From the NCBI GenBank assembly GCA_944470555.2, contig OX104130.1, forward strand, positions 66,531,160 through 66,595,159: a DNA stretch of 64,000 nt, given 5' to 3'. Numbering within the stretch: position 1 is the first letter of the stretch; every line of letters begins with the position of its first letter. The notes beneath the pieces were generated by a model that saw only the letters and a program-made list of their open reading frames with translations, had not been told where the DNA came from and made no database searches. A program made the position numbers and the translations under genes. The DNA is from Heterobilharzia americana (lineage: Eukaryota; Platyhelminthes; Trematoda; Strigeidida; Schistosomatidae). Shown one piece after another: positions 4,501-43,500 of this stretch.

Positions 4501-7500
4501 TTAAAATCATCTGCAAGAACTATTCTACAAAATATATCCATGACCTTACATAGGAAGGAATACAGGACTGACATTTATTGTAGTTAAGACGTTAACCCGT
4601 TTTCTAGAAAGAATTTTAAGAGGTGATAGTGAGTTCGTTCGTCTTCATCAGATAAGAAAGTTAGAAATTTAACCACTTGAAAAAATAAATCAAGTCTCTC
4701 TATTCCGACTAGAAAGATAGTTTCTCTTCATGAAGCATAAAAACCTGATTGGCTGTTCAGTGATTGAAAAGGTGCTCTTTAGTCAGCATGATGCTGCATC
4801 AGCACAGCCTTCCAGTGAAAAATCACCTAATTACAGTTGAATAAAACAAAAAATTAGGTAAATAACTCAAAATTCTTTAGTTAAATAGAAAGCCAAAATT
4901 AATCCTCATAACATCAATATTTGCATTACTTGTGGGTTACACTTAACTATGCAATACAATGCAATAATCTCACCTTTGAGCTCAAGATGATTTTGCCCAA
5001 CGTACAGTTTTCACTGGTTTTATATTTGATACGGTAACCGTTGAAGTACTCTACAATGCAACAAAAATGCGATAGCATAATTAGGATTAGTTTTGCTTGA
5101 AAAATTTGAAACAGTTACTCCACCTTATCAAACTTGGATAGAGTAAATAGAAGTTTACATTTGTGTGTGTTGACACATATACAACAGGGGAAGAGTAATC
5201 GAGCTGTGCAGCTAAGGATTGAGGAACATGTATCTAAATGTTACTATTTATTGACATAATTGTAATTCTCAGTTGTTTTATTGGATAAAATTGTTAAAAC
5301 CTCTATTAGCATATGGGCTCCTATGCAAATGCCTCGATATTGCCTGAATGTTAATTATGGTAATTTGGTTGGTTGTGGCTAGCAGAGGAATTCAGGATAC
5401 AAGTTCTGTCCTATTTGGGACTCGTCAGCTGGATGGACTTGCAGCCCAGTGAGTGATGTTGTTCCCATTGAGACTAAAACCTCGTACCCATCGCTTCGAA
5501 CACCAAGGTGTTATCCACTATGACTCGGAGGCAAGATAGCCACTTCTTGTACAACGGTGGCATAGCGGATAACGCCATGGCGTTTGAAGCGACTGGATTG
5601 GAATTCAGGTCTCAATGGGAACAACACCACTCACTGGGGTGCAGATACATCCAACTGACGAGTCCCAAATAGGACGGAACTTGTATCATGAATTCCTCTA
5701 CTAGCAAAAACCAACCAAATTACCACGTATCTAAATGATTTCAAAAAGTTTCAAGTGGCAGATAGAGTTTTCCAGCCATGACCAAATATACTGTGCAAAT
5801 ACATCGCGGAATTCACGTTAAAACAGCCTATAAAAGTGAGCATAGCGACAAATAGAGGCGCATATTGAGATTTGCAGAAATAACAGTCTAAGACCAATTA
5901 AAGTCTCATTTTGTATTCAAAAGAAATCTTGAAAACATTTAACTGACTTTATTACCAACAGTGTTTTTGGGATCAGCTTTCTTATAACTAGATCTCTTAT
6001 TACCACAATTGCATTAATTGACCTCCCATTTTTATTGTAATATAAACTGAATTAACAAGTAAACTTGTGATTAAACTGCTCGGAATGCAGTGAGCAAACA
6101 CATTACATTTTTCAGACGAACATCGTCAGCTAATTACACTACTTGATCCACGTTAAACTAAACTATCTTATCAAGCACATATATGATTTTGCAAAACGTG
6201 AAATGCGACAGCAAAAATGTGAGAGCGAATGATACTACATGGTTTTCAAAACTTCAGTGTTTGAAGCAGGTTTCAAACTCATGATCTACAAATCAAAAGT
6301 TAGCTGCTGTGACCCATGAGCCGAAACCAATTAAATATATAAAAAAAGACGAAATAAGACTACAAAGAATAATCTAGCAAGTGAAGAAAGTGGAAAAGGA
6401 ACGAAAAAAAATAAACTAAGACCAAATTAAATTCAGACCAGCGTAGTCACAAAGACTCCACCCACTTCCTTTGCATACAAAGGTAGGGCTTCAACCCACA
6501 AATAGCCAAGGCCCTTGAAGTTGAAGATGGAGAAAACGTGAAATGTTCCAGGGAATTCAATAAACAACCTTAAAATCATTGTTTAGGTCGAGTGAATGGT
6601 TACGATGGAGTAAGTGTTCAAGTATCGAACTTCTAATCCATTTCCTTTTACTCTTACAAAACCAGGCTGAAATATGTTCCCCTCTACGTGCCGACAGTAA
6701 TCTCTGGCTGCGGCCAACTTACCACCTCTCTCCTCAGGAGTAGGTGAATTGTAAGACCACCATGTAGGTGGCCTTTCGAAGAGCATTGCCTTTTATACAC
6801 GTAAAGAACAATTTACGGTTAGTAAAGGTCAAATGGAGTTTGGCTGCGTAAAATGTCTGATGCTACATCACCTTTGTATTCCAGATACATGAACACAGTC
6901 GTTTTAGAAACTGAGTTGATGACTAATTTCACATATCTTTCTTGCATATTTTTACCGACCAGTCGGGTGGGGCAGCCATTTTCTGCAAGCGTAGTTCTTA
7001 AGAAGTTGAGTTCAGCTTCCACATAGTGTATGCTACAAATATTTCGTTATCAATAGAAAAGCAAGTGGATTAGGCTTCCTTTCCTCAAGATAGACAGCGG
7101 ACTTTAGAAATTCGTAAACTTTTCTTCTATGTGGGCTTTCTATCAAGGAAAGGAATTGCTGATTCCAATTCTTTCTTAAGGGTGAACTCCAATGCTGAAT
7201 GACAATTGTTGAACGGGTGCAGAATGTCATCAATATCGATATCTGGATCACAAATACAAAATGCATCATTCATACATCTTTTGTAGATGTCAAAGTGGTT
7301 AACAGTTTGACTAAGATTGGAATTTCTCAATTCAACGTAAACAACGGGCCATCAGAGCTGATAGTGGGTATCCTATTTCAATCCTATAATTTTGTCGGTA
7401 TATTAAACATACATTTCATCAAGAGTTCTCTTAGGTAGTTTGTTGGACTTCGTACTTTCTTACTGTGTGAATCGATATGCTTTTAAAAATGTGGGATGAA

Positions 7501-13500: not shown

Positions 13501-16500
13501 GTTCACTCAACTGGATCATGCAACAAACGGTAAGCAGCCAGAAGATGGGCATACGCACGCTGTTTGACCGAAGAAAAAGACCCTAGAAGAAGATTTCGAT
13601 TTCGCCAACGATGATGATCTATATCTAATGTCCAATGTCGCACTAACTCGAAGATCTATAGGCTAAAACCAACAAGTTGGCAGAGGAGGCAAGGCGAGGC
13701 GAGGCGAAGTGAGACAGCGAAGATGCGACTTCCTTCAGGTGAACGTAGAGAAGATACAGGTGATGAAGATACTCAGTCAACATCATCATCAACAGCAACA
13801 ACAACAACAACAACAACAAGAGTAAGCACCAGTCACCATCAATGGGAGAAATCGAAAGGAGGTTGTCTCTTTCACCTACACAGGCAAGACACCATCGTTC
13901 CAACTACAGACGGCACAGGCACAGATGATCATGTCAAAACCAGGATCAAAAAACCATGACAGACCTTCCTTCATTAATCTGAAATCAGTGTGGAGATCTA
14001 CTCCACTATACTCCACTCCACTCAACATAAAGCGTGAACAAGATCCAGATTTCCAACACTAATACTCATGTAAATTCAGTGATGGTGATGTGATGGTTGA
14101 GAGACTTGGTGTGTTACGAAAAGCATTTTCAACAAACTACACACATCATACATCAACACATGCCACCTACGCTCACCCGATAATGAAGATCAGAAGGCCA
14201 GGACAACAAGATTAAACAACAAGGAACTCTGGCTGTCTGGCTGGCAAGCGGGCTGGCTGGCAACGAACCAACCAACAACCTATCGCCCAACAAATATGTA
14301 GAAGAAGAAAGTTGAGATGGATTCCATTGGATTAGATTGGATTGGATTGGACATATATTGGGAAGACCATTCGAGGACATCACGAGTCACGCCAGGCCAC
14401 GCCAGACCACACCACACCACACCGTCGAGTGGAACCCAAATGGGAAACGACCAGTTGGGTGTCTGAGGCGAGGGTGTCATGGAGGTGATCGTTTGAGGAA
14501 GAAATGAAGGGTTATGGGGAGTTGTGGATCCAGGTTGAAAAGACTGCAGAGAAGAGATTCGAATGGTGACGTGCTACTGAAATCCTATGTTCCACTAGGA
14601 ACCCAAATGACGAGTAATAATATAATGTATTAAATAAAATGCCTCGGATAAAACAATAATTGGAAAATTACCTAGTTTATTGAGATACTAGAAGATCAAT
14701 TCATCTTAAAGCAAAACATTACTCAAATCTAAATATATCCCTAAAACGTATTTATATGACAAAAATGATAAGCGTGATAAGTTGTGAGAAGCAGTTCATT
14801 GAACCGCAATTGAAACAAATCATCCATAAAATGTTTTTTACAAGCTCTGTGGAAATTTTTGTAAATCACAATCCATAAATAGATTATATTAGATGATATG
14901 TGTACAAATTGCAAAGAAACAAATTTCTTGGTTAAACGTAAAACAATAATAGAATCAAATGTGACTGCCTTTTAAACCTATTATTTGTTTATATATCGCT
15001 ATATAGTTGCTAGTTACTTTATGTGAGGTCGACACCATAACACCAAAATACTTGTCACACTCACGAGGAATGACTTAAAAAGTCACTCTAGCAAAAATCT
15101 GAAATAACCAATTAGACTTATCTAGTTTATAATCATATACTTTACAGCTGAAATGAAGTAGCCTGATTGATGATTTCGAATATTGCTAGGGTGGCCTTTA
15201 AAGTCGTTTCTCACGATTATAGGAAAGACATAACATCTGTGTAGGCTTCACTATATTGGATGAATAGTCTATTCGTCAACAAAAAACAGGGAAATATGAG
15301 ATGCCTTAACAGCGTACGTTGCCTGGTCAAGCTATCCTAAGTAAGAATGACTGGTGGACAGACTACGACTACACACTATTGGTTAACCGATCATCTAAGT
15401 TTCCGGAAGTATAGGTAGTGGTTACGGACACAACAAAGATATTTTACTTGGTAACATCTGTCATGATAGTTTATGGTGAAATTCAATTAGTGAAACTGTT
15501 TCTTTTTGTAATGTGCATTTTCTTGTTTCGTATACATCCAGAACAGATAATTGAAATTCTCAGTTGAACAATATTATTACAAGTAGTTAATTAAATAACT
15601 GGGATAACTTTCAGTTGGTATTCATCATAGACTGACATCATTTTCAGAATCATTGAAAGCCTGGGAGTTCTGGACAGCTGTTTCGCCCAAGTATGGGAAT
15701 CCTGATCTGGTTAGGGATCCAACTCGAGACCTTAAGGTTGCACGACGAGTGCGTTAACCATTTAGCAATTACTTCGGAGTTTAGTGGTTCTTAGTTTTCT
15801 ACTTCTGTCAGTTAGCGATATAGGGCGACTATCACTCAGCATCTTCAGTTGACATTCACTTTCCTTCTGATTGGTTGACTCCACAGGTCACAGCTTCTCA
15901 TCAGAACTTCGCGATTTCTATCTAGAAGCATGTCACTAGTGAGCACTATACAGTGGTGTATTTTGAGGTTAATGGGGATTTGTTTTTTAAGGTAGCATTC
16001 ATGACGGACTGCCATTAGTTGTGGAACTATCACAAACCTGGGAATACTGGACTAATGTTTCATTCCAGTATGGAACATCTCAGCAGTACATACCCATGAC
16101 TATGCCAGGGATCGAACCCAGGGACTTCAGGTTCCATGGAGAGCACATTCGACCCTTAGTGAAGTAGTACGCCCACTGTTGAGGAGTCCGATACTAGGAT
16201 AAAACATCTGTTTAGTTGTCCCAGGTTTTTAACTGATATCAGTTCATGACAAATACTACCTTGACATCAATAAATCTACCAAAACCTCCAAATTGTATTA
16301 TTTACTGTAATATGAACTTCAATATTATTACCAGAGAAACAACAGGAGTCAAAGACATGATCGATGTCATAAAGCATCTTCTCTCATCAAGGATGAGTAT
16401 TCGCAAGTTTAAAACAAAACGGAATGCGCTACCTGCACACACACGCACAAGATATTCAATAATATAAAAGATGAAGATTATTTTAAATGAGTTTACTGAA

Positions 16501-22500: not shown

Positions 22501-25500
22501 TTCCTGAGCATGTTTGTCTCTGAATTATCTTTATTATGTTACACTGCCATTTTTCCTTTTTTACTTTTACGCCTAGGAGTCAGATGACTTATCTCCACTT
22601 CCACTATCACTGTTATTATTATTATTGCTGTGGACCCAGTAATGCTCTAGCCTTCTTTAATTTTAGTTACCAAGCTTCTCAATTTAATTTATCCTTTCCA
22701 AAATGACGTAATTTTAGATCTTTTTATTGTTCTTCTTGTTATTATTACCACTCACTTGTATTATCATTACTATAGTTAATATTTTTATTTGCTCAACACC
22801 AATGGTTCCTTAGCGTGCACTTTAATCAGGCTACTTAGTTGACTACTAATTGTTCGAAACGTTCAAAATGATGAAATTCATTCCTGGTCTTTTTGTCTTT
22901 TAATATCAACGTGTTGACCGCTCAAACCTAATCTTAGTTCTATTTGAGCTCAGTTAGTTATTCACTTTGTGTTGGTATGTCTCATTCAAGGCATTAGTTC
23001 GCATTATGGGTATATGTATTCCTGGACTGCACAATAGTATATGCAATTATGTATATGGTGTAAAAAGCTGAGGTATTCTACTGAGATTTATGAATTCAAT
23101 AAATCGTGTTTAAATATCGTTGTTTCCTTTTGTTAACGAAGTGAATAATGAGGTTTACGATCCGAGTTTGTCGTGTTTGACAAATGTACTGATACTGGGT
23201 GATGACTGATGGTGAGAGGAAAATTCGGGCGACTGGGGGATTTTGACGAGGGACCACCGAGTTGTTGTGTGAGATGCTTTACTAGTTAAACTACGAGACC
23301 CTGCTGCTGACCAGATTTGTATTTCATGGGGAGGAAACTTAATGGTCGGTAGTTCGAACTCTGCTACGGCGAAAAGTTTTACTTCCGCAGTATCAGTACA
23401 TGTTTGCTACACCACGTCCATCTTAGATAGTTAAAGTGATAATCAGTATGTTGCTCTTTATCTCTCATACAAGTAGATTTGTATTGGGATGAGAATCGCT
23501 GACTGGGCAACCAGTATGAGTACCATGAAGTGATGGTAACGTATTGTGAATTCACATAGCTGTCGGGTAAATTTCTTGATGATTTAAGGAATAGAAAAAT
23601 CTGGTCAGAAGTGGAGTCTTGTAACTCAGTTGTTAGAACATCGCGCCGGAAACCCAGTAGTCGCTGGTTCGAATCCCACTGTGGTTCAAATCTCCATGTC
23701 ATACGTTCAGTTACCACGTAGTATTATAAATGACTTAAAGAATGTAAATAGCAAAATAAAAAGTATTTACAAATTGGGAATATGATTAGTTAATTAACAA
23801 TATTCATAAAAAAGAAAGAAAGAAAGAAAGTGTGAGTTACCTGTGGAAGATTCATGATAAATTGATGTGCATTAGCCTTAATAGCAGCAGCTTCAATTTC
23901 TTTATCAGTTGCATTAATTTTTCCCAGTCTAATATTTTCACGTATTGTACCATCAAATAATATTGGCTCTTGTTGTACACATCCTATTTGATTTCTATAA
24001 GTTGTAATATCGAGTTCACGTAAATTTACACCTTGTATTAAAATCTATAACAAAATAAGTTGAAATAGAAAAAAGGTTAATACAAAAACAAAATAGCTGA
24101 AGAGGTAATCAGAGTAAGAAATGAAGACACAATATATTAATGGTGGAGACTGACTAGCAGTGGAATCCAGGACGCGTGTTTCATACTATTTGTGACTCAT
24201 CAACTGGGTGCACGTGACTCACAGTGGGTGGTGTTGTCCCCACTAAGACTCGAAGCCGGAACCGATTGCTTTAAACTTCAGAGAGTTATCCACTAGGTCA
24301 CCGAGTCACAAGAGCTACTTCTTATGAGACGGGTATAGTATAACTTTGATGTTATATATTGTCAATCTTCTTCGATGATTGGACCGAATTAATCGGCCAC
24401 TATTAGCATATGTGTCCCTGTGCAGATGCATCAATATTTTCGGTAGTTTCAAGTTCGAATTTTGGTGGGGTCAACATTACTCAGTGGGAAGCAGGTACAT
24501 CCGGCTAACGAGCAACAAATAGGACGAAACATGCATTTTGGATTCCACTGCTAACCACTATGAATCACTATAAAATTTGAAAATTCTAGCAATCTTGAGG
24601 CATCTGCACAGGAGCCCATTCACCAGTCGTGGCCGATTGAATCAGCTCAAGCAACCACGGGGACTCACAAGCCATAATACTAAAACTGCACTGTTATATA
24701 TTTGCAGATCGTAAACAAAAAGATAGGCGAATTACAGAGGACTTCATTATTAGCTTTATTAAGGTGTGATAATAATTTACAGTGGATTTACTCTTGCATA
24801 GAAGTTTAAACTTGTTTTAATCAGCTCCATCTTACAAATTTGAATGATGGGTACTTCAGTCATATACTTTATACAGATCTTCTATGACTCGGAAACAAGT
24901 TTTATAAATAGGTGTCAACGATCATGAGATTTTTGTAAGAAGGTTACTGGAAATCATCTTTAGAAATTGCATGTTTTGATGCAATGAACTGTTATTACTT
25001 TACAGTTGAATGCTGATAATGTATTTAGTTGGCGTGAAGTCCTGGAAAATTATCATCTTTCGACTAATGAACAACATCAAGTTAGTATACATGTACTGGT
25101 AGTAACTTCTGTAGAGGCTATATGATGAGATTTGAACAGAGATTAAAATTGAAATGCAACTTGGAAACCATATGCACGTTCGTGCATCAGGTAATAAGCT
25201 AATGGGACTATCTGCCTGTTTATAACTTTGTAGGTAAACCAGAATTGAAACTCGTGACCTGTTGGTTACGAGCCCAGTGCCAACACCAACGACTTACACA
25301 CCCGTGTGATACGACTCATCTGGTTTCAGACAGATCAGGACTTGTACAGTCCTTCAAGTAGCACAGTTCAAACTCAATAACAGAAATGGTAATAGCTTGA
25401 TATTTGGTGTTTATAGTTATGCGAAAGTATATACTCCCATTCGCCTCGCCTTTGTCATCATTGTCCAGCAAAGCTCATCTGACTCAGTGAAAGAGAAAAC

Positions 25501-28500
25501 AACATATTTTAACATGGAAGACAACTAGTTTAGTGCTATAGTGAGAAACGTTAATGTTGAAGTATAGGACCAGATTATGTATTGAAAAGAAAATAATTAT
25601 CAAACAGAGTCAAGCCTGATAGTCGTGAGGACAGTTACTCAACGATGACATTGGGTGGCGGCTGCGCTATATCGTGAGCTAACAGAAGTTGGAAATATGG
25701 ACCATTGGATTCTGACCCAGTGGCTCAATAGCAACGCGCTGGCAGCGGAACCTGAAGGTCGTGGGTGCGCACTGCTGAGGAGTCCCATACTAGGACGAAA
25801 CAGCTGTTCAGTGCTCCCAGGTTTCCTTTGTTCCCCCAGCTGATGTCAGTCTACGATGAATAACAACTAGAGATTTAAAGATAATCATCTGCTATTCAGC
25901 GCTAACTGTATGCTGTCAGTAAAAAAGCGATAACGGGATTAATCATTGGTATGTGAAGACTGTAATCTGTTAGATAAGACTGAATTTCCGGTTAAGCTCA
26001 AAACACTTCAAATACCTAGATTTCACCACACACACAAACACACAAGCTAAAAAAGATTTCAGTGAATATCATCCGCTTTTCGGTATTTAAGAAGATATAG
26101 CGGTTATCGGAGTTCGTAATATATCATGACCTTGATCCAATGTCATCGTTCAGTATTTGTCCACACTTCCGATTCGGTTTGCCCCAGCGGCCACTACTTC
26201 TAATTAAAAGAGCAGGAAGTCTCATCTCGAAGCGTATCAAAAGCGAGTGTTGGACAACTGTTTCGTTCGATTATGTCAGATTCTGTGTTGTTCAAGTTGG
26301 TCATTCTTACTAGAGTTTTGTCAAACAAGCAAAAAAATAATCTATTCAGTATAATTGCTTACTTCACCCTGAGTTGGATCATAGAAACGCTGAAGCATAT
26401 GGATGATAGTACTTTTGCCAGAACCACTTGAGCCAACCAATGCGACTGTCTGGCCACTTTCAATAGTAAGACAAAAATTATAAAGAACCTGAATTTATTT
26501 AAAAACGAGAGAGAAAGAATAAGATTGAGCAATAAATACAGTCAAACAAATTATAAGTGGATCGAATTACAACGCTACCCTACGCATCATCATAAAAAAC
26601 AGCATAGAATGCCAGCCAAATACATCTTTACCTCAACTTCATCGACTGCAAAAATCCCTCCGACAGACTCAAACGAGAAGTAATTTGACAGGCAGCTGCT
26701 TCCACACTACGCTTTTACTGCCACAAACACTTACAAAACTCACTATACACCACCTATATGCCATATGAGGATGATACATTACAAGTGATTCACAATGGAA
26801 AGCTCAGTGACACCTTCAAAGGGAAGACAGGAGTAAGACAAGGCTGCCGTCTACTATCCAACCACGATATTCATGATTGTGGTCCACTCAACTGGATCAT
26901 GCAACAAACGGTAAGCAGCCAGAAGATGGGCATACGCACGCTGTTTGACCGATGAAAAAGACCCTAGAAGAAGATTTCGATTTCGCCAACGATGATGATC
27001 TATATCTGATGTCCAATGTCGCACTAACTCGAAGATCTATAGGCTAAAACCAACAAGTTGGCAGAGGAGGCGAGACGAGGCAGCGAAGATGCGACTTCCT
27101 TCAGGTGAACGTAGAGAAGATACAGGTGATGAAGATACTCAGTCAACATCATCATCATCATCATCAACAACAACAACAACAACAAGAATAAGCACCAGTC
27201 ACCATCAATGGGAGAAATCGAAAGGAGGTTGTCTCTTTCACCTACACAGGCAAGACACCATCGTTCCAACTACAGACGGCACAGGCACAGATGATCAGGT
27301 CAAAACCAGGATCAAAAAACCATGACAGGCCTTCCTTCATTAATCTGAAATCAGTGTGGAGATCTACTCCACTATACTCCACTCCACTCAACATAAAGCG
27401 TGAACAAGATCCAGATTTCCAACACTAATACTCATGTAAATTCAGTGATGGTGATGTGATGGTTGAGAGACTTGGTGTGTTACGAAAAGCATTTTCAACA
27501 AACTACACACATCATACATCAACACATGCCACCTACGCTCACCCGATAATGAAGATCAGAAGGCCAGGATAATAAGAATAAACAACAAGGAACTCTGGCT
27601 GGCTGGCTGGTTGGCTGGCTGACTGGTAAAGAACCAACCAACAACCTATCGCCCAACAAATATGTAGAAGAAGAAAGTTGAGATGGATTCCATTGGATTA
27701 GATTGGATTGGATTGGACATATATTGGGAAGACCATTCGAGGACATCACGAGTCACGCCAGGCCACACCACACCACGCTGTCCAGTGGAACCCAAATGGG
27801 AAAAGACCAGTTGGGTGTCTGAGGCGAGGGTGTCATGGAGGTGATCGTTTGAGGAAGAAATGAAGGGTTATGGGGAGTTGTGGATCCAGGTTGAAAAGAC
27901 TGCAGAGAAGAGATTCGAATGGTGACGTGCTACTGAAATCCTATATTCCACTGGGAACCCAAGGGATAAATAATAATGATAATAATAGTCGTCATAATAA
28001 TAATAAAATGTAGTACTATGTTTTCTTTCCGAACGACCAGTATAATATTTATATGTATCGTAAAAAATAAGCGTTCATTCATTCCTTAAGAAAAAGTCTT
28101 ATGACGTCTTGCATTGTAAGTCATATGACTCCAAGTTTATAATGAAAAAACAGCATGGTAGAGTAAATACTTTGGCAGGATCAACAGACACATTACAAAA
28201 CGCATACAGTGAAAGAAATCATTAGCTTCATTTCATTTTGTATCTAAATAACAGGCATTCAGTTGGAAATAAACGCATGAACAATAACAAATCCAACTCA
28301 GAAACTTGATATAGCATTTAGTTATGAACTACCTCGCATCCGTGGTGGCTTACTATGCAGTTGGTAAGTATGATAGAGTCGACGTGGATTTTTTTCTGAA
28401 CTTATACTTAAACAGCTGATAGTCGAAAACAGACTAGACTAGTGATACGCTTTAAGATGGAAGTTGTCCAGACCGTTCGGGCAAACTAATTCGGAGGTGA

Positions 28501-31500
28501 GGAGAGTTCCTCAACGACGGCACTAAATAACGGTCAAGCTCTATTAGGAACTGACAAAAGTAGGAAAATGTAGACCATTGGATTCCGATCGAGTAGCTCA
28601 ATGGAAACGTGCTCACCATAAGACCAGGAGGTCCTGGGTACGACCCCTGGAGGGGCAAGGTGATGTATGAAACAGATGTCCAATACTCCTAGTTTATCGA
28701 CGGTTTTTTGGTTGACGTCAGTCCGGGATGAATACCAACTTGAAATCAATATTTAAATCCTCACAAACCTTCAGAATGAATTGAAATCAGTGTTAGTGTG
28801 TTTTCACAACAATTCATCACCTTCCCTTGGAATCTGAATCTCCTAAAAAGTGTTACGATTAGATTTTCTTGTAACGAAGGTCTGAAAACCATATAGGCAC
28901 TAAATGGATAAAATCCATTTCCTAGGTGCTTATGCCGTGGTCAAATAGCCAGATATAAGAAGGAAAGAACTAAATGTCTACATGTTTTCAATGTCCATTT
29001 TCAGAATTTTATATCCTGCATATGGCATCCAATCTACAGTAGGAAGTGTTGAAAACAACGAGTTGCAGATAAATGGTTTTAGGTTTACACATTGTCTTTT
29101 AGAGTGCTCACTGGGCAAAGACTTATCTTAGGTGGTTCTTTCAATGGTTAGGAACGTCTTTGTAGTGAGCGCTGACGGTAACTAACATAGGCAAAATAAG
29201 TAAAAGAGCATCAGCATTAGGAATATTTAGGCTGATATTTAGGTTTGCTAAACGTACTGGTCACAGAAGACATAGTTACCGATATCATTAACGGAAAAGA
29301 TGAATTTCTATCGAAAGTGTAAACGCTTCGCTGAGCTATAAGTGAAATTCAGCTGCCAAAAGTGTAACCTTAGTTTGCGCACTAATGGAGTATCAGTCAT
29401 TTGATTTTCGAGAAAAGTGACTCGTGCTGCTTAATTCTCTTGCATCCCTGAGAGAGTCAATAGAAAGTGGTGAAGATAGGTCGGTTTTACAAAGAATTTA
29501 AACGGATAAAAAAGTCAAAGTGGGAACTGTCACGAAGGTACATTAGTTCAAGTTGTCACATGTTACACTAATATGTAGAGCAGAAATGGATTGAAAAAAT
29601 AATTCCAACATTTCGACCTACAGTTGTAGTTTTACTAAATGTATTTGTCTAAATGGATTACGAGTGTTTAAACCACCAAAGGATCAAGTAAATTGTTTGT
29701 AATAAATATTTTGAAGTATAGATATATGGAAATAATTGTAAGCCATAATTCGAAAACTTCAGCAAATTATTAAGAAATCGCTAGCACAGCATCCCAAGTC
29801 GCATTTTGTTTTGAAGGACCACTAGAGCTCTAGTGAACGTATAACTCAAATGTTATGTTCAATGTATAAGGTTTTGTATGGGTCCTATGATCCAGTCCAT
29901 GATACCGCTTTTAAGATATGATGAAGATATACAAGTGTAGGTTGAGGAAACAGGAACACAACTGACTCCTTTTAACAAAAGTAAACAGAACAATTCAGTC
30001 TTGATCCAATGTCTTATCATTCCAGTTAACAATTTCCAGGGACAAGATGCTCAGTCAAGGCGTCAAATGAACAGCGAATGAGGTATAAAATCTTGCCTAC
30101 AGAAAAGATTTCCGTGTAATACTATTCCATCGAAGCCAACTATTTCAGCACTGTTATTTCGAAAGATTACATAGATGGAATACTTCTGCATTGTACTTTC
30201 AATATTCTGTTCCGATTTACCAATGAGTTTTATTGACAAAAAGACGGATTAGTAATGGGGTCACTTCTCAGTTCTCTACAGGCAGACCGTTTCATGACAA
30301 ACTTGGAGGACACTGTGCTACAGTTGTTGATCCAATATTATAATTTATGTAAGGCATACATAGATGATTTATTTATCATTTATGATAAAAAAGTGATCAA
30401 ATGCTCATAACTGATAACTGTAAACGCTTCCACCAGTCAGCCAGATTTACGATGGATTCTAAGGTAGACTATGAGTTTTGTTTCCTTGATTTACTATAAA
30501 GAAGACTAGGTGACTCTTCGAAGATTAAATCATAGCACGCCAACATGGAACGGACAGTATGTACACTTTTGGGGTTGGGCACCGATGAACAGCAAGATGG
30601 ACTTGATTCATTACTTGTCTCTGAAAATCAGACGAATATGCATAGTGGACAAGACTGATGGTAAAGTAGCATAACTCCGATAACTACTGTTCCTAAATAG
30701 TCAACCTTTCACAATCATCGTGTAAGGTGTGTATTTTACTTGTGTTATCCCGGCGAAGTATATTGGGCCAAATCACAAAATAAACAAATATTTTATATTA
30801 TTCCTCAACGTTTCGATCTTGGTAAAACACCATCCAGTTCGTCAGGGCAAGATACTAAATCACTCACGGACAAATACTGACAGCTCACTTCATAGTGAAG
30901 TTATTGCTGATGATGTCGTCCAGAAGACGATGAAAGCTCCATGACTAAACAATCCAGCTCAGAGAACACAATACAACCAAGACTCTGAGATAATTCTCAA
31001 TACTTCTGTTTTGTTTCAATGTTTAATGAACGTTTTACATATTTTATTGTTTCACTTATTTTAATTAACTTACAGTCGTATCTGGACGTGTGGGATACGT
31101 GAAATTGACATGATGAAAGGAAACGTTCCCATTGAAATTTGGAACAATTTTGCCACTTTTTGCTTTATCAATTGCAGAAACCTGAGTAAATATAAATATT
31201 CAGAAAAATAATGCAAAACTAGACAGAAAATAAGGTAAATTTTAAGTGTTTGTAACAATCAATCAACTGGATAATAAGTGAAGATAAGAAAACAAACTTC
31301 ACCAAAATATGAAGTGCTTTGAAGGTTGTAAAGACAACTGGGGAGGAGGGCTTACTCTTTTGTAAGACCGTGTCAACCTAATTGAATCGTTGTTTTTCAG
31401 CGAAATGTAACGTAATAAGAAGATGGAGGTTTTTCTAGCCATTTAAGGATATGCTCCCAAGGCATGTGTCACCGCACGCACACATAAATTGGAATACATA

Positions 31501-34500
31501 GCCGGATTCGACGTAATCATCTATGTAGTGATGAGGTTTATTTTGAAGCATAGGTTTCGTTTACTTGATAGTATTGAACTTGGCCGCATAACATGTCTTT
31601 CTAATAACTGAATTAGGCCTTTATCTTAAGATTATGCTGTTTGATTCCCCCTTATACGGTAGCGTGATGTAAACGTCCTTCAGAATGCTGATTACTTCGC
31701 ACCATTGACACGTTTTTATGACGATTGATGAACTTTAGAGGATATGCGTTTTTCATGAGTGTTGCCGTTACATTGGGAGTAGTCAAACTATGGAGTCGAT
31801 AGTGATCGAGCATATCCTTAAATGGTTAGAGAAACAATTACATTCAAATAATCCGATAAATACAGGGGCCAGACAGATGTCATTCTCGATGGGTAAACAC
31901 ATCATAGAAACAGGTCACAGGATTGACCCCAAAACAGCCTTTAGACCATTGTATAGGAGCCATCAAGACCGTATACCTAGGTTCATTAAAGCCTTAGCAG
32001 TACTAAAGTTCAATCCGTTTTTATGGGTTCAAAAACAATTTGTCCTTCCCTTGAACCTACCTTGATAATCTCATTTTAATGCCAAGGTGGTGTGAAAATG
32101 CGTTATTTTTCCTTATTATCCCTATATAATATCCAAAACTTGTATTAGTTTATTTTTATCTTAATTCACCCTACTTTAATTGTTTATACATATGATACAA
32201 TGGGCGATCAGAGCAAATTTCTGACAGACACACTTGTGGAAAACTGATATCCATTACAGTTTCTGAACTGTTGTAGAAAACAGTTTACTCGTTAGCCGAT
32301 AATTTTCTGGGTGCCCGAGGAAGGATATATTTCTTAAAGTATCATACAGAGAAGAAACGAGTAGTATGATATTGAAACAGAGATGAAAATCTGTTATCAG
32401 TAAAACATACTATACAGCATAGTTTATCATTGTTGCGACAACAAAACACCTGCTTCATCACAAACCTCAACCTCGCATAAAGGAGTATGTCACATCTTAC
32501 TGTGTTTATCAATTTACATCTATGTGGGGGCACACATACATAGGAAGGAGTAATCGTGCTATCCAGACTAAAGTCAGTGAACATTTATCTAAATGTTGCT
32601 ATTCATCGAAGACTGACATCAGTTGGAGGAACAAAGGAAACCTGGGAGCACTGGACAGCTGTTTCGTCCTAGTATGGGACTCCTCAGCAGTGCGCACCCA
32701 CGACCCCACCAGCAGGGATCGAACCCGCGACCTTCAGGTTCCGCGACCAGCGCGTTACCATTGAGCCACTGGGTCAGAATCCAGTGCTCCATATTTCCAA
32801 CTTCTGTTAGCTCAGGATATAGCGCAGACCGCCACCCAATGTCATTGTTGAGTATTTGTCCTCACGGCCATCAGGCTTTGACTCCACCGGTCACGACTTG
32901 TCATTGGAACTTTGGGAATACTTCTCGAAGCTAGTCACCAACGAGCACTAGTTTAATTAAATTTTGAGGGGTTGTGGAGATTTGGAATTATTTCAAGTTG
33001 TTATTCATCGAAGACTGACATCAGTTGGAGGAACAAAGGAAACCTAGGAGCACTGGACAGCTGTTTCGTCCTAGTATGGGACTCCTCAGCAGTGAGCTAA
33101 CAGAAGTTGGAAATATGGAGCATTGGATTCTGACCCAGTGGCTCAATGGTAACGCGCTGGTCGCGGAACCTGAAGGTCGCGGGTTCGATCCCTGCTGGTG
33201 GGGTCGTGGGTGCGCACTGCTGAGGAGTCCCATACTAGTGGGACGAAACAGCTGTCCAGTGCTCCCAGGTTTCCTTTGTTCCTCCAACTGATGTCAGTCT
33301 ACGATGAATAACAACTTGAAATAATTCCAAATCTCCACAACCCCTCAAAATTTAATTTATCTAAATGGCCTGAAAAACAGTTTATCACACAAACTTTGAT
33401 AAATGTAGGTGACAGATATCCATCTTCATCCATAGCAAAACATATCATCGAAATGAATCATAAAGTTAGAACGAGAACAGTATTCAATATATTATATAGG
33501 AAGAGTCATGTGCGCATACTGAAAGTGGCCAAAGCGTTAGCCATTCGTGAATTTAAATCCCCAATTTGTGTACAAAACAATTTGTTGTTTCATCTTCATT
33601 AATTTACCTTTGTAATCCTTATCTGATTATAATACCAAGACTAGTGTCACACAACCTTTTCGTATTCATTACATCTGACCTTTCATTCTCATATATATAA
33701 ATTGACTTGTTAAGTAAATGTGTGATAAGATTGTCCCAAGTGTATTGGTGCAAATACATTACACATTTTTCAGATAATCTTCATCTTTTAATAACGTTAT
33801 CAAACAATGAATACTGACTAATAATAATAACAATGATAATAAAGATAGCGATAAAAGTATTTATATTTATGGTAGCAGTTGAAGTATGAATGATAACAAA
33901 ATGGATATATAGATTGGTTTATAGAATGCATGCAACTCAGAAAGTAGCGTAAAATTGATGAAAATAGCAAGTCAGTAAAGTATTATGTACTAGGATTAGA
34001 TAAGTTGTTAAAATAAAACCAATATTTTCTTGAAGTGATTAACACGATTAAGCGAAACAACGCTAGAAACTTATTCAGAGATGAATAAATTTGGAATAAA
34101 TCATGCAAAATAGTGTGAAATGAAGTTGTGTTCTATCTTCTTTTCATATATTATTTGGAACTGTCTCTGCTAGTCATTAATGTTTGCCATATATGTGGGA
34201 TGTCTAACCCATCTTTTCTGTTGACCGCAGAAAGGTACGCGCAGATATGAAAAGCTTCTGCAATGGCCTACTCTTTGTGAGAAATGAAACTCTTCTGTAA
34301 GACTCGCCTTTTCAACTAATGTTTTATGAAGGCATGAACTAGGATGACCGAGGTTTTTTCAAAATTTTCCAAATTATAGGAAATTTTTGGTTTCTGCTTG
34401 CAAATTCGACTGTGTTCTGTTAGACGTGTTAGTACTTGGTGTGATGTCTCTCCATTATATGTGGCATCGCATTCACTACAGTTTACCTTATAAACGAGTT

Positions 34501-37500
34501 TCTGTTGTTGCAAATGGGGGATCGGGTCTTTTAATTTGCGCAGGTGTGAGTGTGGTGTTTGCCACCTTGAAGAATATTCTGATGTTGTAACTATTAGGGA
34601 TACTCCATATTTCCTCTGATGTGGCGAAACCGAGAGGTTGAGAAGGTATCAGTGTTGCATAAAACTCGGCAACTATTTAGGCTTATCAACAATACCGGCA
34701 GGAAAAATACGATGGTAAGTGGAACCATCACCGAAAAGGATGGAACGCCGACAACCTCCCGGGACAGAAGGATAGAACGTTAGGCAAAACACTTTGAAGC
34801 AACGCTTAAATGGTCCTCAGCAATGCTTCAGTTGCCAAACAATCAGCCTGAACCTGAATGGGACGCAGATGTCTGTCATCCAACTCTCTTTAAAGCTGAG
34901 AAAGCTGTATAGAACCTGAAAAGATGCAAAGCAGCAGGACCTGACAGTTTAACACCTGGAGTTCTCAAGGATGGAGGTAGGAAATTGGTGAGGAGTGACG
35001 GAGTTACTAGGCGGGGTATGGGAACCAGAGGTAGTCTCGTTAGACTGATGTACTTCACTGATCATCCCAGTCTATAAGAAGGGGGAGAAATCTTGTGACA
35101 ACCATAGGCGAATCAGTTTAACTAATATTTTGTCCAAGATCCTAGGGTCCATAGTTATCCGACGCCTAACTGTAGCTAGAGAACAGTAAACTCGAAAAAA
35201 CCAGACAGGTTTCAGACGAGGGTATATCAATCAGGTTTCCACCCTCCGACAGGTTCTGGAACACAGGCATACCTACCGACCAGTGACCGACACTTGCCAT
35301 ATTTCTTCATCTGAAGGCGGCATTAGACTCTATCGACCGTGAGGTGTTGTGGCAGTGTCTAACTGTGAAGGGAGTACCGAACAAGTAAGTAACGCTTATC
35401 AAATCTCTCTACTCGAGCTTACGCAGCCGTGAAAGGGCTTATGGAGAGTTGTCAAGTGCGTTGACAACAACTAGTGGTGTCCGGTAGGGATGTCCACTAT
35501 CACCATTCCTGTTTAAACTTCGTCATAGACGTACTGATGGAAATAATCCCTGTACGTCTGACTTCATAGGGACTGACCTACTCCATGAAGGTCATCTAGT
35601 TGACTTGGAATATGCAGACGATACTGTCCTGCTAGGTGAAGACGTTAACAAAATGAAGCGTCTTCTGAAAGACTTCAGCAGAAACCTGTGTATGTTCAGT
35701 ATGCTCTGGTACAACGTCAGCCTGTGAGAATGGGTTTTCATTTTATAAGCCGGATGAGTGATGTTCAGAATACTCGCTCCAGAAGCGTGCATCATTCTTT
35801 GTCGGAGAGGATGTGTTAGAAGTAAAGGGGGAAGACAGGACGAAGAAATTGTTTGTATGTTTTGCTGTCTCACCCTACGGTAGAAAATCTTCAGCCCGGA
35901 GTCAGTTGTCGCCTGCAGAAGGCCAAAGCCCTTCCGAGTGGACCATAAAAAGAAGTCGTACACTCTTTACGGGGGGAGGCTTTACGTAGCGACAAGAAGG
36001 CAGCCAGTAGGGGAGTTTTTAAGTCGTGATCAGATCATGTCCAGGCCATGATTTATGCAGGCGCTGACATGAGGACCTGATTGGAGGAATTCGACCTCAT
36101 AGAAGAAATCTGATTGGTCCATTTGTGGCTGCACTTTCTGAGAGTTTTGTAAGTACATATATGTCATGTATTTGCCTAATAAAAGTTTGTTGTCCCTGTT
36201 CTCACAGTCACAGGCCATCTTTGTCTTCTGATTTTACCGCGGCTAAGTGACGCAGAAGGTACTGAGGGATGTCAGTCGTAAAGGTATTCGGTTGAAGTGT
36301 CTATTGAGTCTCAGTATTCATTATACCCACGCGCGCAACCCCACCACTCGGTCACAACATACATACATTGTGAATTGCTACAGCAAGACAGTTGCAACTG
36401 TTGTCTTCGATGTTATTTATTCAGTCCTTTTGAAGTTTGAAAATATCAGTAATACTTTTGAGAAAGTTAAACTGAAACTAAGTTGTAATGATATTTGTAA
36501 TATCCCGTTGTTATACAGGGCCGAACTGCTCGATCTCTGTTGACAAATGAGCCGCAAATAGAACGAAACGCGCGTCCTGGATTCCTCTGCTAGTCACCAA
36601 GATCAATATAACATTATGAGCAACCGACAGTATAGAGGCATCCGCATACGAGCCAATCTGCCAACAGAGGTCGAGCAATTCGGCCCTGTACAGTAACGGG
36701 AAATTACAAAAATGATAATAGCTAATGATACCTGTTGCGTTAGAGGTGACTATTGTGTCCCAGTAGCCTATTGGATACCACCTCGACGTTTCAAAAGACG
36801 GGCACTGGGTCCGAGTCTCAGCTGGAAAGGCATCACTCATTGAGGTGGTGGTACATCTAGCCGATGAATTCCAAACAGGACGAAACGTGCATCCTGGATG
36901 CCTCTGCTGGTCGCCAAGATCAATAAAACTGAGTTGTAGTTGTAGACGCTTCAGAATGCTAAATTTTTTTTTGGGGGGGGGGGGGAATGGATACATCAAG
37001 CAATTTGTTGTATCAAGTTAATTATATCAATTTTACAGTGTTTCAGAGTGGATCCTGATAGCAATAGTAATGAATCAAATGATAAACAGCATACAAACAA
37101 AAAAGATGTTAAAAAACTTACATGATTTATTGTAGTAAATATGTCTTTAGATGCTGTGACAGCACCCAGAATATATGGTACATTTGGTAATGCATTTCCT
37201 AGAAATATACTTCCCAGTAAAATGTTTATAAACACCTGGAAAAAACAACAAGAAATACGTAGGTGAATGGAATGTGAAACGTATGTTTAATTCCCTCGAG
37301 AAGTATATAATGTTAACCGAAAATTAGGTTGTGGTGATTCTCAATCACGAATATGTTATGCAATACATCATGACGAATGGACTGTTCAAGAGAACAGTGA
37401 ATGAAATATTGTTTTACTCCCATAGGCTTTTGAAATTTCATTACAGCAATCAAAGGAAACAATCATATAATCTTTCATTATAGAAATACATTTCATCGGG

Positions 37501-40500
37501 TGCAATAATCTATGCAGAAGACTAGATGTTGTAAATCAAGGCTCCTTTGCTTAAAATCAGTTCATCGATACACGTATATCAATTCAGCTGTTCTTCTTGA
37601 ACAAGTTTCATGATATGCAGGATTAGAAATTTCTAGTTCTGGATACGAAAACACTTGCCAGTCCAGGTCGGGAAGAGTGAAGTCCAGTTCATCAGAAGTT
37701 CCACACTAGTACATTTAGCGGGCAGAGGACATCACCTAGATGCTACTATGGCCACTGTAACCATACACTTTCAAAGAGATTATCATTTGGAATCCATATT
37801 AGCCTTTTTTTTAGATAGCTGAGGCAGAGCAGCATAACATCGAAAAAACCGTAATCATGCTTTCAGTAGACTAATTACGACCTTCTTAACTGCAAATTTC
37901 TCTTTTTCTTTCTCCCATTTAACGTTTTCTATTTTCATCCTTAATGTAACAAACCACAAAATTTTGGTGCTTTTGTCAAAGCCCTACATAATTAAAGTAG
38001 CACAAACAACCTCCTTGTTACCATCAATACATCAGTTTATCTTCACAGACACTTTATACACCAACCATTTCGTGATGAAATGATCATCCCATTCCTACTA
38101 CATTTTGCTTAACTTGTATCATTTTCTATATTAGCCACTTCTTACCTAAGATAAACAGTAACCTTGATCTGTGTTGTAATTTTCCCTGACCCTAAATTGT
38201 TTTTAATTTATTATTATTATTACTTACTATTGCACTAAACTTATTCCCTCATTTGATATGCATACAGAATCACTTCTAGCAGTATTTGTTCATATCGTTA
38301 AAGTGGGTTCGATCCCTGGTAGGGTCATGGGTGGACACTGTTAATGAGTCCAAAGTTTTCAGTGGTTTTGTAACTTGTCAGTCCATGATGAATATCAACT
38401 TAAAGTCATTAGCAATGTATCTCATACATTTCATTCACTTGATAACTGAACAATGCAAGAAAGAATAGATTTGTAGAATGAAGTGATGTCATTTCATCTC
38501 ATGGATATTTGTGGAAAGATACCACCCTTCTTGTGTTGTCACCTCCGACTGTATTTACTAATTCACATGTGCTTGGGGAAGCAAGGGCTGAGAGAAGATT
38601 ATCTACTTTGTTCTATCAATATATTTCAAGAAATTTGTGTTTGAAAGGTAGAAAAGATTTTATAGGTGCAATGATCAGACACTTGGCGGGAACTCGACAC
38701 CAAATACACATCTTCGAAGCCTTCAGGATAGTCGACAAACAAAAGTCGGGAAGTTAACTACGATTTATTGAAACCTATACAATCAGATATGTTAAAGCTG
38801 ATGTTTACATGCAGAAAAAGAGACTGCGGTCAGTCTTTCCTTATCCTGGTAATTCAATGCTGTTATTTTGGGTTACATCATGTCTTCTTTACTATCTAAT
38901 AAGGGTTGGTCACATTTATTTTAATTAGTCGTGGGGGTATGAGTTTTCTTAGTGGGTTAGCGACTCAAGCGAAATAAGAGGACTTCATTTTATCCAAAAG
39001 ATTTTTTCGTTTTTGCTTTGTTAAATAAAGTGTATCCGATTGTATACCTGGCTATTATCATGATAAAAAATCTGATTTGTTAAATGGAGAACCTGAAGAG
39101 AATTTATTCAAAAGGATATCCTTCAGTTATACTTACTGAGTGGTGAACTGCTCGCTGTAGAACGTGAATAGAACTGTCATTCAAGAGCCCTTAACCAAAA
39201 CGAAACAACTATTTAGCCTTCTATGGCTTCTGATAGTTCTCTAGCTAGTGTTACTCTGTGATATAATGTTACTGTTCTCTTTATTTTTAAGTTTATCTTC
39301 AGAATCACTTACTGCAATCACAGCACCAGGATCAGTATTTTCATCTTGGATCAATTTGACACCATACCAAAATACTAAGGCTGCTGATCCAAATATTACA
39401 AATCCAATACATCCTGAAACTAATGAACCAATTAAAAACTTATCAAACATGAGAAAGAAAAACACTGAAAAGCAACCCTCCCCCCGAAAAAAAATGAGTA
39501 AAACGATTATTTACAATCAACTGTTTCATGTTGATAAGGATATAGTGTATACAAAAAGTCAATGAATGAAATGATCCATCTGAAGGAAAAAAATCCTAAA
39601 CAACGACAAGAATGACTGAAGTTCAAACAAAACAGGGTTCCCGCAGGATTTGAACCAGTAGTCAGGTTTTTGTTTCAGTGTCCGTAATTGTCCCAACTGA
39701 ATAAAGACCAGTACATCAAACTAAAGCTATTTCAGTAAACCATTCGACGGTGAATCCAGTGATACTGTGGTTTGTCTAAAGTGTACAGAAGAATCAACTC
39801 GGAGGTAATCTACTACTCAACAACTTGAGTAGTTGGGAAACAGTCAGGCTAATATGAAGATTTAGCCAGCCAGATCAGATCAGAGTGATTTGAACACCAG
39901 ACGGCCATTTCACTCGTTTGGGATCGAGCTCATCAGCAGTGGTTAGAAAAATTCAGCTGATAGAGCCAAATTAGTTCAGATCACCTGAATTGGGCTAGCT
40001 GACTTGCATGGACTGATACACCTAAAGTATGATGATTAATTTGCAAACGGTTTACAAATCGCACGGTCCATGTTGAGGTCTCTGGTCCGAATCCCGCTGT
40101 GGTCCAAATTTTCATTTCGCCTTCATCACCAAGTATTAATACAAGTCAACCAAAACAAGGTTATCTCAGATTGTTAAACTGATAATAAATAATATGAGAG
40201 ATGCACAAAGTAGCATTGGAAAATATTAGCGGTTTATGTATAAACGAGGAAGTCTTTCAGACCATAATATGGTGTTGCTTTCTAGTTTTGGAAAATAATT
40301 TAAATGAAGAGTCAAATGAGTCTGGGTGCGCAGAGATAGTCAGTTGTCCCAAAAGAAAGAAAACACTGCTAAGTATTCTAAAATACTATTTCTAACTTCA
40401 TACAGCTCAGTTACTGTAAATCGTTGGAAAATGAAAATGTAGGCGAGTATATATTCTATTCTGTTTTGTTTACTACTTATTCATTTTAACAGTGTTCAGC

Positions 40501-43500
40501 TCTTAAAAGTCCCCTACTAACCCCGCCTATTGATAAGGTTGTGAACTGTCAGCAACTGAGGTGGCTGAGACATTTATTACACATGCCTAATCACCGTCTG
40601 CCTAGCCACAGAATTTTAGCTGAAGTAGGTCTAGCCTGGAAAAAGGTGAGGGGTGGCCAGACTAAAATGTGGCATCACTGCATAAAGTCCTTGATTACTA
40701 GTCTGAGACATGCAGAAAGATGTAGATTAGTCGGTTGAGGTTCATGTGATAACAGAAACCAGTGATAGTATTGGTCAGAATTTATGTCAGTGACGCAGAT
40801 GCTATCATCTTAACCGTTACAGTGTATTGTATTTATACTGGGTGATGATTGAAGGTGAAATGAAAATTTGGACCACTGTCGGATTCCAATCAGTGGGGTT
40901 CCGACCCGATACTCCTACCAACTGAGCTACAAGGTCCGACTGCTGACCAAATTTTTACTTTACTTCAGTCACTAAGGATTTTACCCGATTACCATGTGAA
41001 TTCGTGACGTCACTATCGCTTGATAGTATTCACACTAGCTGCCTAGCGAGGACCTTTCATCCCAATCCCAAATCAACCACCCATGGTAATTGAAGCAAAA
41101 TAAAAATCTGGTCAACAGTGGAACCTCGAAGCTCAGTTGTTAGAGCATCGTGCCGGGAACCCGGTGATTGCTGGTTCGAATTCGGCCGTGGTCCAAACTT
41201 TCATTTCACCTTCAATCATCACCCAGTATAAATAATAGTCTGCTAAACCATGGCTATCTCAGATAGTCAGGACGATAATTCAGTAATTTATTATTTCTTT
41301 TCCTTCCCTTTTACTGCTTTCCTTTTTGTTTGCTCATATCCCATTTTAGTGCTTTACTGCTTGATATGTTGATATGAGATTTGGTAACTTGGATCGTCAC
41401 GTGGTAATGTTTGGTCCTATGCTGATATTGATAATGAACGCCTCCTGTCAATCCAATACATTAAACAAGATTTTCAGAGCAAAGATCGAAATGACCTGTT
41501 ATGAAAAACAGAAGATATGTTTAAGATATAAGTAGGTTTTAATATAATCCCAGCTTGTTTAGAAAATTAAAACAAGATTTTTCTGAATGTTTCGCTCTAT
41601 GTACCACAACTTCTTCATCAGAATAAAGAAGCTATGGCATATAGACCGAAACGTTCAGAAAAATCTTGTTTTGATTTTCTAAATACGCTAGGATTATATT
41701 AAAACCTACTTATACAATGATTAAACCTGACTCGGTGCTCAACTTCTTTCAGAACGCTCGTAACAAACATATTCGTTGTGTTTGATATGAAACTTAGTGA
41801 CTGAAGGCTTCAGAAAGCATTCAACAAACTTTACTGTGCTTTAAATTTACTTGAGGGGAAGATTATGTTCTTCTTAACAAGAGTATAGATAGTTCCATAG
41901 CAGGAAATAATATACTCAGAAAAATTAAGTGAAACAAGCAATACATCAATTTATCTAGCTTCACAACTATGCATTATAAGATCCATTTCAAGGTTTTAGT
42001 CAGAGAATAAGATTCATGCATTCGAGAGACCGGAAAAGAATTACTGAAACTAAAGAGGATTTTGTATTTTTGAGGTGAATGGGGATTTTTAATTTCGAAG
42101 TAGTATTCATCGTGGACTGATATCAGTTGGGAAACCATTGAAAATCAAGCAGCACTAGAGAGCTGCTTCGTTTTAGTATGGGACTCCTCAGCAGTACGCA
42201 CCCACGACTCGGCTAAGGATCGAACTCAGGACCTTCGGGTTTCACGGCGAACGCGTTAACCATTCAGCCACTGGGTAGGTTCTCAGTGGTTCACAATTTC
42301 CGACTTCTGTCAATTCATGACATAGCGCGACTATCACCCAAGGTCTTAAGTTAGCATCCGCTTCACTTACGACTGGTTGACCGCACAGGTCAGCTGTCTA
42401 GTGCTCCTGGATTTTCAGTGGTCCCCCAACTGATATCAGTCCATGATCAATACTACTTCTAAAGAGGATTTTGTTGCAAATTTAATATCCAAGTGATTTT
42501 TCAAAGACCAGATCAAGTAAGTATGAAAGCTGTACATTTAGTACTAGAATTCAAATATGACGTAGATAGTCATTTAACTTCACACAGACTGGAAGGATAT
42601 TTTTAATAAGGTTACATTAAATTTTAGTTCTTAAAACAGATTGACACTGACACAGTACGTTAAAAACAAAATACAAATGATGTTCACATTATTGAGGTCA
42701 CATCAGTTAAACTGCTTTTACCGAACTAGTTATATGGGCCGTAGAGTCAGAGGACTTTATCTTTGCACGCCCTTAGACATTTTTACCAGCTTAGGTTGAA
42801 AAAGCGACCAAATTTAGTGTTAGGTTAATCCAACTAATAAAGCTTTCCCTGTGCCAACTGAGGACCGAGGAATTTGTGAAGAAGTGCACAACTTCTTTCC
42901 TAGGAATGGTTAAAACAATGAGAACCAATATGAGAAGGTTAGATTCATATATTTAAAAGTACATCCATCCATCCATATCAACATAGGACCAGGGATTACT
43001 GCGTAAAGGTCCAAGTTGACACAGCTCACATCAGTACATCAAGTAAAAAGGTAACAAAGTGGAAGATGAAGAAAAGGAAATTCAGTCAAAAGAAATATAA
43101 AGTATGAAAAGAGAGAAACGAAGGATGAGAAAATGGTGAGATTCGGTATAGCGTCGTTAAGATGAGGATAATGTGGGTATACATCTGCACCACTCACATC
43201 GGTTCTCAGCCATATCACCACAAGCCAGTCTCTAAACACTGCTTTTTCTTGTCTCATCGACCCCAACCACCTAGTCTCCATCGACCCACATTGCTAAAAC
43301 CAACAGTCAAACACTTCATACATTGATGCCATGTTTCAGTCTGGTCACCTCGAGCCTTTTTCCAGTTTGAACCTACTTCGGCCAACATTGTATGATGAGG
43401 CAGACGGCGACTAAGCATACGTAACACATGTCCCAGCCATCTCAGTCGATGAAGGTTCACAAATGTGTCAACTGTCCCACCTCTTCTCCCTATAACTCTA

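Follow-up and report, generated by a model that had tools for sequence, protein, structure and literature searches.

Head-to-head composites of short retroposons in Heterobilharzia americana and their probable integration by a Penelope-like enzyme

In a 64,000-nucleotide stretch of the genome of Heterobilharzia americana (GenBank assembly GCA_944470555.2, contig OX104130.1, positions 66,531,160 to 66,595,159; hereafter the window, numbered from its first base), copies of several short retroposon families lie back to back, with their 5′ sides facing and both 3′ ends pointing outward. The locus raises the question of whether such a composite represents one integration or two and, if one, what machinery would leave two outward 3′ ends. 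A first-pass annotation of the letters alone had described five such blocks, had proposed that a single complementary DNA (cDNA) snapped back on itself, perhaps promoted by the self-cleaving hammerhead RNA of these short interspersed elements (SINEs), and knew of no description of such a class. Our analysis indicates that four composites are single integrations, and that the families A, B, and D that form most of these structures are probably non-autonomous retroposons, integrated in trans by a Penelope-like enzyme through two-strand target-primed reverse transcription.

Four composites are single integrations

Self-comparison, profile searches, and alignments recovered copies of a single family in inverted orientation, 5′ sides toward each other, at all five blocks (composites A1, A3, A5, B1, and B2; Table 1), as had been claimed. 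Further composites lie at 36488 to 36925 (B3), at 40832 to 41300 and 23142 to 23728 (D1 and D2), and, as a palindrome of family E, at 41527 to 41714 (E1). The block at 5241 to 5726 had been delimited exactly to the base, being bounded by an 11/11 duplication (5230 to 5240 and 5727 to 5737). For three others the head-to-head arrangement stood and the extent changed: block 15957 to 16300 reaches back to about 15613, block 24395 to 24645 spans about 24145 to 24685, and block 32946 to 33354 has the correct right end, while what had been taken for its left 3′ end is a head-to-tail junction inside a longer insertion. The insertion containing that last block (A1) spans 32596 to 33354 and sits between 13-bp target duplications.

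The window holds 31 arrays of these families (15 A, 8 B, 6 D, and 2 E, with same-strand tandem pieces merged by hand). Adjacent same-family pairs within 60 bp were head-to-head in nine cases (3 A, 3 B, 2 D, and 1 E) and tail-to-tail in none. With random placement and random strands, the maximum in 20,000 trials was five head-to-head pairs, reached in one trial. The count leaves out further inverted repeats in the window, such as those at 6345 to 7954, 15065 to 15212, and 53914 to 53984.

Target duplications surrounding the whole composite were found in four of the nine (13/13 for A1, 16/16 for A5, 11/11 for B1, and 12/13 for B3), and none of the 18 inner pieces, which do not include the halves of E1, scored above 7 in the duplication test. 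A score of 11 was reached by 0.075% of 4,000 random intervals and a score of 9 by 0.43%. Because the duplication flanks the composite as a whole and none flanks the inner pieces, A1, A5, B1, and B3 are single integrations each. Among 12 single copies, one (266 to 391, family B) had a 13/13 duplication, and the remaining 11 (8 of family A) scored at most 7. The sequence ATCTAAATG occurs four times in the window when both strands are counted, at both ends of A1 and at both ends of B1. The motif CTRAR was present in 5/5 duplications (A1, A5, B1, B3, and 253 to 265), a possible endonuclease preference.

The flanks of A1 can be read in pieces as an old endonuclease-like gene, with a decayed reverse-transcriptase-like stretch upstream (about 30120 to 30465, plus strand). 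Joined together with one copy of the duplication, they matched an uninterrupted relative at 31739 to 32062 (39/96 amino acids identical; E = 1e-21 in a single comparison); the alignment runs in frame across the site, and its single gap is not at the join. Since the joined flanks align straight across this paralogous empty site, A1 arose by a single insertion into a pre-existing gene. The flanks of B1 are homologous to those of A1 (left score, 81; right score, 108; shuffle maxima, 51 and 63 in 200 shuffles each) and read EEHVSKW at the insertion site, matching that of A1. Families B and A hit the same codon independently in two diverged copies of the gene (EHVSKW at 5230 to 5240 and EHLSKW at 32583 to 32595), and by a rough estimate it is unlikely that they share one codon by chance. 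The neighboring region from 31400 to 32090 contains two endonuclease-like fragments in opposite orientation with 5′ sides facing, possibly a head-to-head remnant of the element that would have provided the enzyme.

Arms, outward ends, and junctions

The two arms of A1 are not copies of each other. Its plus arm is unbroken over element positions 1 to 271; its minus arm holds positions 119 to 271, then a 5′ part and positions 1 to ~232, tail-less. Neither arm could template the other without an additional switch. The three pieces of A1 are 98 to 99% alike over ungapped bases (215/218, 133/135, and 92/94); when gaps were counted, the plus arm matched one minus piece at 96.1% and the other at 94.7% by BLAST. 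Alignments showed tail-to-head junctions like that of A1 also at about 2640 to 2700 and 15930 to 15990, and partial head-to-tail tandems in A1, A3, B2, B3, and D2 and at about 2646 to 3045. The arms of A5 and B1 have diverged (60/68 and 144/173 ungapped bases identical), and their 16- and 11-bp duplications are intact.

Two 3′ ends recur, a short one and a long one, with the extra length amounting to ~38 nt in family A, ~117 nt in B, and ~60 to 70 nt in D (by eye). Each outward end was scored against the tails of other copies, taking the best z (300 shuffles each). A tail was present on exactly one outward end in eight of the nine composites; E1, with its co-terminal arms, was not scored. Given 8 long ends among 16, the chance of one tail per composite is 0.02. 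Single or unpaired copies were long in 4 cases and short or unclear in 7 (n = 11, a count that leaves out the family A arrays at 38303 to 38416, 45660 to 45925, and 48050 to 48300). The short-end arm was the longer one in six of the eight composites, which would fit earlier use of the short site and is a lead only. At the five of nine head-to-head junctions that could be resolved (A1, A3, A5, B1, and B3; by eye), the arms overlap by 2 to 3 nt, and the chance that five random joints would all have an overlap of at least 2 nt is ~1e-4.

Table 1. Features of the composites and of the A1 host gene, in window coordinates (z, tail score of the outward end)
Feature	Coordinates	Strand	Evidence
A1 host gene, old endonuclease-like reading, 5′ flank	32423..32595	+	Flank homology, translation
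A1 host gene, 3′ flank reading	33357..33599	+	Translation, joined-flank alignment
Uninterrupted relative, paralogous empty site	31739..32062	+	39/96 amino acids identical across site
A1 left target-site duplication ATTTATCTAAATG	32583..32595	+	13/13 vs. 33355-33367; random intervals ≥13 in 0.05% of 4,000
A1 unit of family A, short 3′ end outward at ~32596; contains a 5′ part, tRNA-like region, and hammerhead 32648-32693	32596..32948	-	Tail absent, z = 0.4
A1 5′-truncated family A copy, hammerhead 33050-33095, head-to-tail with 32596-32948; its 3′ end is the internal junction	32949..33094	-	Self-comparison, alignment
A1 head-to-head junction, 2-nt overlap TG in both arms	33093..33094	.	Alignment by eye
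A1 unit of family A, long 3′ end outward, with hammerhead 33214-33262	33093..33354	+	Tail present, z = 13.5
A1 right target-site duplication	33355..33367	+	Duplication test
A5 left target-site duplication CTAAAGAGGATTTTGT	42050..42065	+	16/16
A5 family A unit, outward long 3′ end	42066..42390	-	z = 7.4
A5 family A copy, 5′ truncation within hammerhead, outward short 3′ end	42391..42458	+	z = 1.8
A5 right target-site duplication	42459..42474	+	Duplication test
B1 left target-site duplication GTATCTAAATG	5230..5240	+	11/11
B1 family B unit, outward long tail, hammerhead 5397-5434	5241..5552	-	z = 16.1
B1 family B unit, outward short end, hammerhead 5649-5686	5553..5726	+	z = 2.1
B1 right target-site duplication	5727..5737	+	Duplication test
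B3 left target-site duplication AAACTAAGTTGTA, 12/13 to right copy	36475..36487	+	Score 9, reached by 0.43% of 4,000 random intervals
B3 family B arm, tail only, long end outward	36488..36545	-	z = 17.2
B3 family B head-to-tail tandem, hammerhead 36855-36899, outward short end	36546..36925	+	z = 0.9
B3 right target-site duplication	36926..36938	+	Duplication test
A3 family A head-to-tail tandem, tail-less outward end, weakest case	15613..16148	-	z = 2.1; no target duplication found
A3 family A copy, outward long end	16149..16296	+	z = 4.0
B2 family B tail fragment and unit, hammerhead 24165-24209, outward short end	24145..24450	-	z = -0.5; no target duplication found
B2 family B copy, outward long tail	24451..24685	+	z = 8.9
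D1 family D tRNA-like SINE, outward short end	40832..41078	-	z = -0.2; no target duplication found
D1 family D copy, Rfam tRNA 41122-41194, outward long tail	41079..41300	+	z = 7.2
D2 family D copy, outward long tail	23142..23335	-	z = 4.6; no target duplication found
D2 family D partial tandem, outward short end	23336..23728	+	z = 0.9
E1 palindrome, co-terminal arms, 4 nt between, 88%; exception to one-tail rule	41527..41714	.	Self-comparison; no target duplication found

Two-strand priming and its rivals

Integration in trans would proceed as follows. An enzyme combining a GIY-YIG endonuclease with a reverse transcriptase, encoded elsewhere, would cut both target strands 11 to 16 bp apart, and each freed 3′ end would prime on a tandem transcript, at one of two fixed internal sites 3′ of the ribozyme. 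The resulting cDNAs would stop at unrelated 5′ positions and join head-to-head via 2 to 3 nt of microhomology, and gap filling would then produce the target duplication. Cutting and priming on two strands would thus yield two outward recurrent 3′ ends, unrelated 5′ truncations, microhomology joints, and one duplication. Direct support comes from the four single-event composites, the recurrent short and long 3′ ends, the non-copy arms of A1, and the five junction overlaps. We infer the identity of the enzyme, the priming of both strands, the tandem RNA template, and the extension of this route to the composites that lack a duplication. A more specific version is conceivable, to be held tentatively: the two-strand event may be obligate, with one strand priming from the short site and its partner from the long site so that each insertion keeps exactly one tail, the footprint of a Penelope-type dimer that acts on ribozyme SINEs in trans. 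The same version would have the machinery prefer the EHLSKW codon in the endonuclease-like gene of old provider relatives, because A and B struck that site independently in two gene copies.

One competitor is self-priming, in which a cDNA (or a strand templated on the antisense) folds back and copies itself into a head-to-head palindrome. This is the published reading of palindromic Penelope junctions in Adineta vaga (PMC3846280), and a short fold-back would likewise leave an overlap of 2 to 3 nt. It fits E1, with arms that end together and only 4 nt between them, better than two-strand priming does, and for E1 alone we retain the snap-back proposed at first. In A1, however, arms of such different composition (1 to 271 contiguous versus 119 to 271 plus a unit ending at ~232) are unable to template each other, B2 and D2 seem incompatible in the same way by eye, and in A3, A5, B1, and B3 copying would need to halt exactly at the other recurrent 3′ site. 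The arms of A5 and B1 have also diverged while their duplications stayed intact; if arms were born identical, the probability of intact duplications in A1, A5, and B1 together would be ~0.01, a figure biased in that duplications were found by exact match. As a general explanation, self-priming is therefore unlikely. The 12 to 17% difference between the arms of A5 and B1 would also suit separate events, in which a second element inserted at the 5′ junction of an earlier one. Such an origin is contradicted for A1, A5, B1, and B3, where one duplication surrounds the whole composite and none surrounds the tested parts; A3, B2, D1, D2, and E1 are not covered by this argument. Exact landing at a junction without a duplication of its own would moreover need to recur, and no tail-to-tail pairs lie within 60 bp; we consider paired insertions very unlikely.

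Inverted repeats are a common kind of assembly or library artifact, but chimeras would explain neither the target duplications nor the in-frame empty site that spans the two A1 flanks, and the arms are unlike in sequence and length; an artifact is hardly credible here. The enzyme could instead be of the long interspersed element (LINE) type, working by a two-strand or twin-priming variant. Schistosomes have many LINEs (PMC1291365), and microhomology joints are known for LINEs too (PMC3846280). Twin priming, however, leaves one 3′ end, and a twin-primed (5′-inverted) insertion is ruled out by the 3′ region present in both arms, as the first-pass annotation had argued; a LINE-type enzyme appears improbable. 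A special role of the hammerhead, also suggested at first, was set aside because family D, for which Rfam gave no hammerhead at E ≤ 2, shares the structure; in the Anolis system in vitro, RNA with a dead ribozyme was inserted no less well than active RNA (PMC11167929).

Several observations weigh against two-strand priming by a Penelope-like enzyme. The gene remnant beside A1 matches RVT_1 weakly in its upstream reverse-transcriptase-like stretch (E = 1.9e-4, below cut-off), its endonuclease pieces gave no Pfam match to GIY-YIG (matches to UPF0154, E = 0.048, and a zinc finger, E = 0.014, are at chance level), its best Protein Data Bank match is not useful (E = 1.3), two protein searches with it found no homologue, and an intact Penelope-like gene was not found in the window. 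In view of the weak RVT_1 match and the lack of a GIY-YIG match or homologue, our description of the host gene as Penelope-like therefore depends on the motifs QxxGxxMGS..YxDD and YIG..EH..KH, which we take to be typical of such elements. The tails of families B (~117 nt) and D (~60 to 70 nt) exceed the 30 to 40 bp given for Penelope tails. The tail assignment in A3 is weak (z of 2.1 and 4.0), and the junction overlaps were judged by eye against diverged relatives. Composites A3, B2, D1, D2, and E1 had no target duplication in the duplication test, and a single-event origin is thus unproven for them. The limits of the composites were drawn manually and some of the duplications had been noticed ahead of testing, which makes the odds post hoc, and all data come from one window.

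Element families and comparison with known systems

Rfam returned 11 type I hammerhead matches above the gathering score in the window, in families A and B. Family A runs from a transfer RNA (tRNA)-like region through the hammerhead to the 3′ region, and its unit is 402 bp (hammerheads ending at 33095 and 32693, one tandem). The family B unit at 36.5 to 36.9 kb is ~312 to 322 bp (322 from Rfam starts; the two reference points behind the 312-bp figure are not quite equivalent), and a spacing of 264 bp was found at 3407/3671. Both families thus carry a type I hammerhead in short tandem units, as retrozymes do; family D is a tRNA-like SINE. Units of 300 to 400 bp are too short for an open reading frame with reverse transcriptase and endonuclease, and the one stop-to-stop frame of at least 120 amino acids that crosses a composite (36511 to 37017, minus strand, 168 amino acids) had no Pfam match. 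For E1, a 281-base stretch had no hammerhead in Rfam and only microRNA-hairpin and small-RNA matches below gathering scores. Motifs in the E1 arms, CTGATGAAGAAG on the minus arm and CGAAAC, presumably resemble the minimal hammerheads of Penelope elements.

Elsewhere in the window, a 1.4-kb repeat is present at 13181 to 14618, 20836 to 22253, and 26544 to 27983 with 95 to 97% identity, and a fourth copy at 50885 to 52048 with about 66 to 69% includes a DUF6451 match (51332 to 51733). Exon-like frames on the minus strand at 46779 to 47228 and 52416 to 52865 gave matches to the transmembrane region of ABC transporters (E = 1.2e-31 and 1.4e-6, respectively).

The hammerhead repeats of Schistosoma mansoni measure 332 to 335 bp (SMalpha, called SINE-like, and W36.2) and 399 to 428 bp (W25.2, W26.2, and W27.2, with 399 to 403 bp for W26.2/W27.2), and the text of the paper has no match for "head-to-head" and uses "inverted" for intra-element inverted repeats (PMC8490949). 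By unit length alone, family B is nearer to SMalpha/W36.2 and family A nearer to W26.2/W27.2. The first-pass annotation had distinguished an SMalpha-like family from family B, and these labels may be swapped, to judge from length and from a ribozyme core that we presume links the elements to SMalpha rather than from a sequence match. A literature text search with the letters of the SMalpha ribozyme gave no relevant match. Metazoan non-LTR (long terminal repeat) retrozymes likewise consist of noncoding units of ~300 bp that carry a type I hammerhead and form short tandems, and the text of the paper on them has no matches for "inverted" or "head-to-head" (PMC7229834). Penelope-like elements have been named a strong candidate for moving these retrozymes (PMC7229834, with PMC7761336 and PMC11722881 in agreement), a link so far argued on the grounds that the two share ribozymes and a tandem arrangement and occur together (PMC7229834). 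Among the matches listed in our literature text searches, none described head-to-head hammerhead SINEs in schistosomes.

The back-to-back arrangement itself is already known for Penelope-like elements, contrary to the initial impression of an undescribed class. In Poseidon (PAc) of Anolis carolinensis, the purified enzyme cleaved and extended both target strands in vitro and started at two adjacent internal sites 3′ of the hammerhead that match the genomic ends with and without tail (PMC11167929). That element is autonomous, and the sections considered mention no head-to-head joining of products (PMC11167929). Copies of endonuclease-containing Penelope-like elements of A. vaga (Pen2a_Av and others) carry inverted pseudo-LTRs (pLTRs), most often head-to-head, with partial direct tandems, a 31-bp tail that is optional on one of the inverted pLTRs, AT-rich targets, and short duplications of 8 to 10 bp around the whole insert that several copies have and others lack (PMC3846280); inverted pLTRs with 3′ extensions were also reported in PMC8969392. 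Those elements carry an open reading frame or captured genes, whereas the units here measure ~300 to 400 bp and contain tRNA-like regions, plus type I hammerheads in families A and B; the tails of B and D are longer than in A. vaga, and the duplications, at 11 to 16 bp, exceed the 8 to 10 bp there (PMC3846280). The A. vaga authors preferred self-priming on an antisense template without excluding other routes (PMC3846280). On our reading, schistosome hammerhead SINEs would depend on Penelope-like machinery, and the natural insertions described here discriminate between self-priming and two-strand priming, a choice left open for A. vaga (PMC3846280) and raised by the two-strand extension seen in vitro with the Anolis enzyme (PMC11167929).

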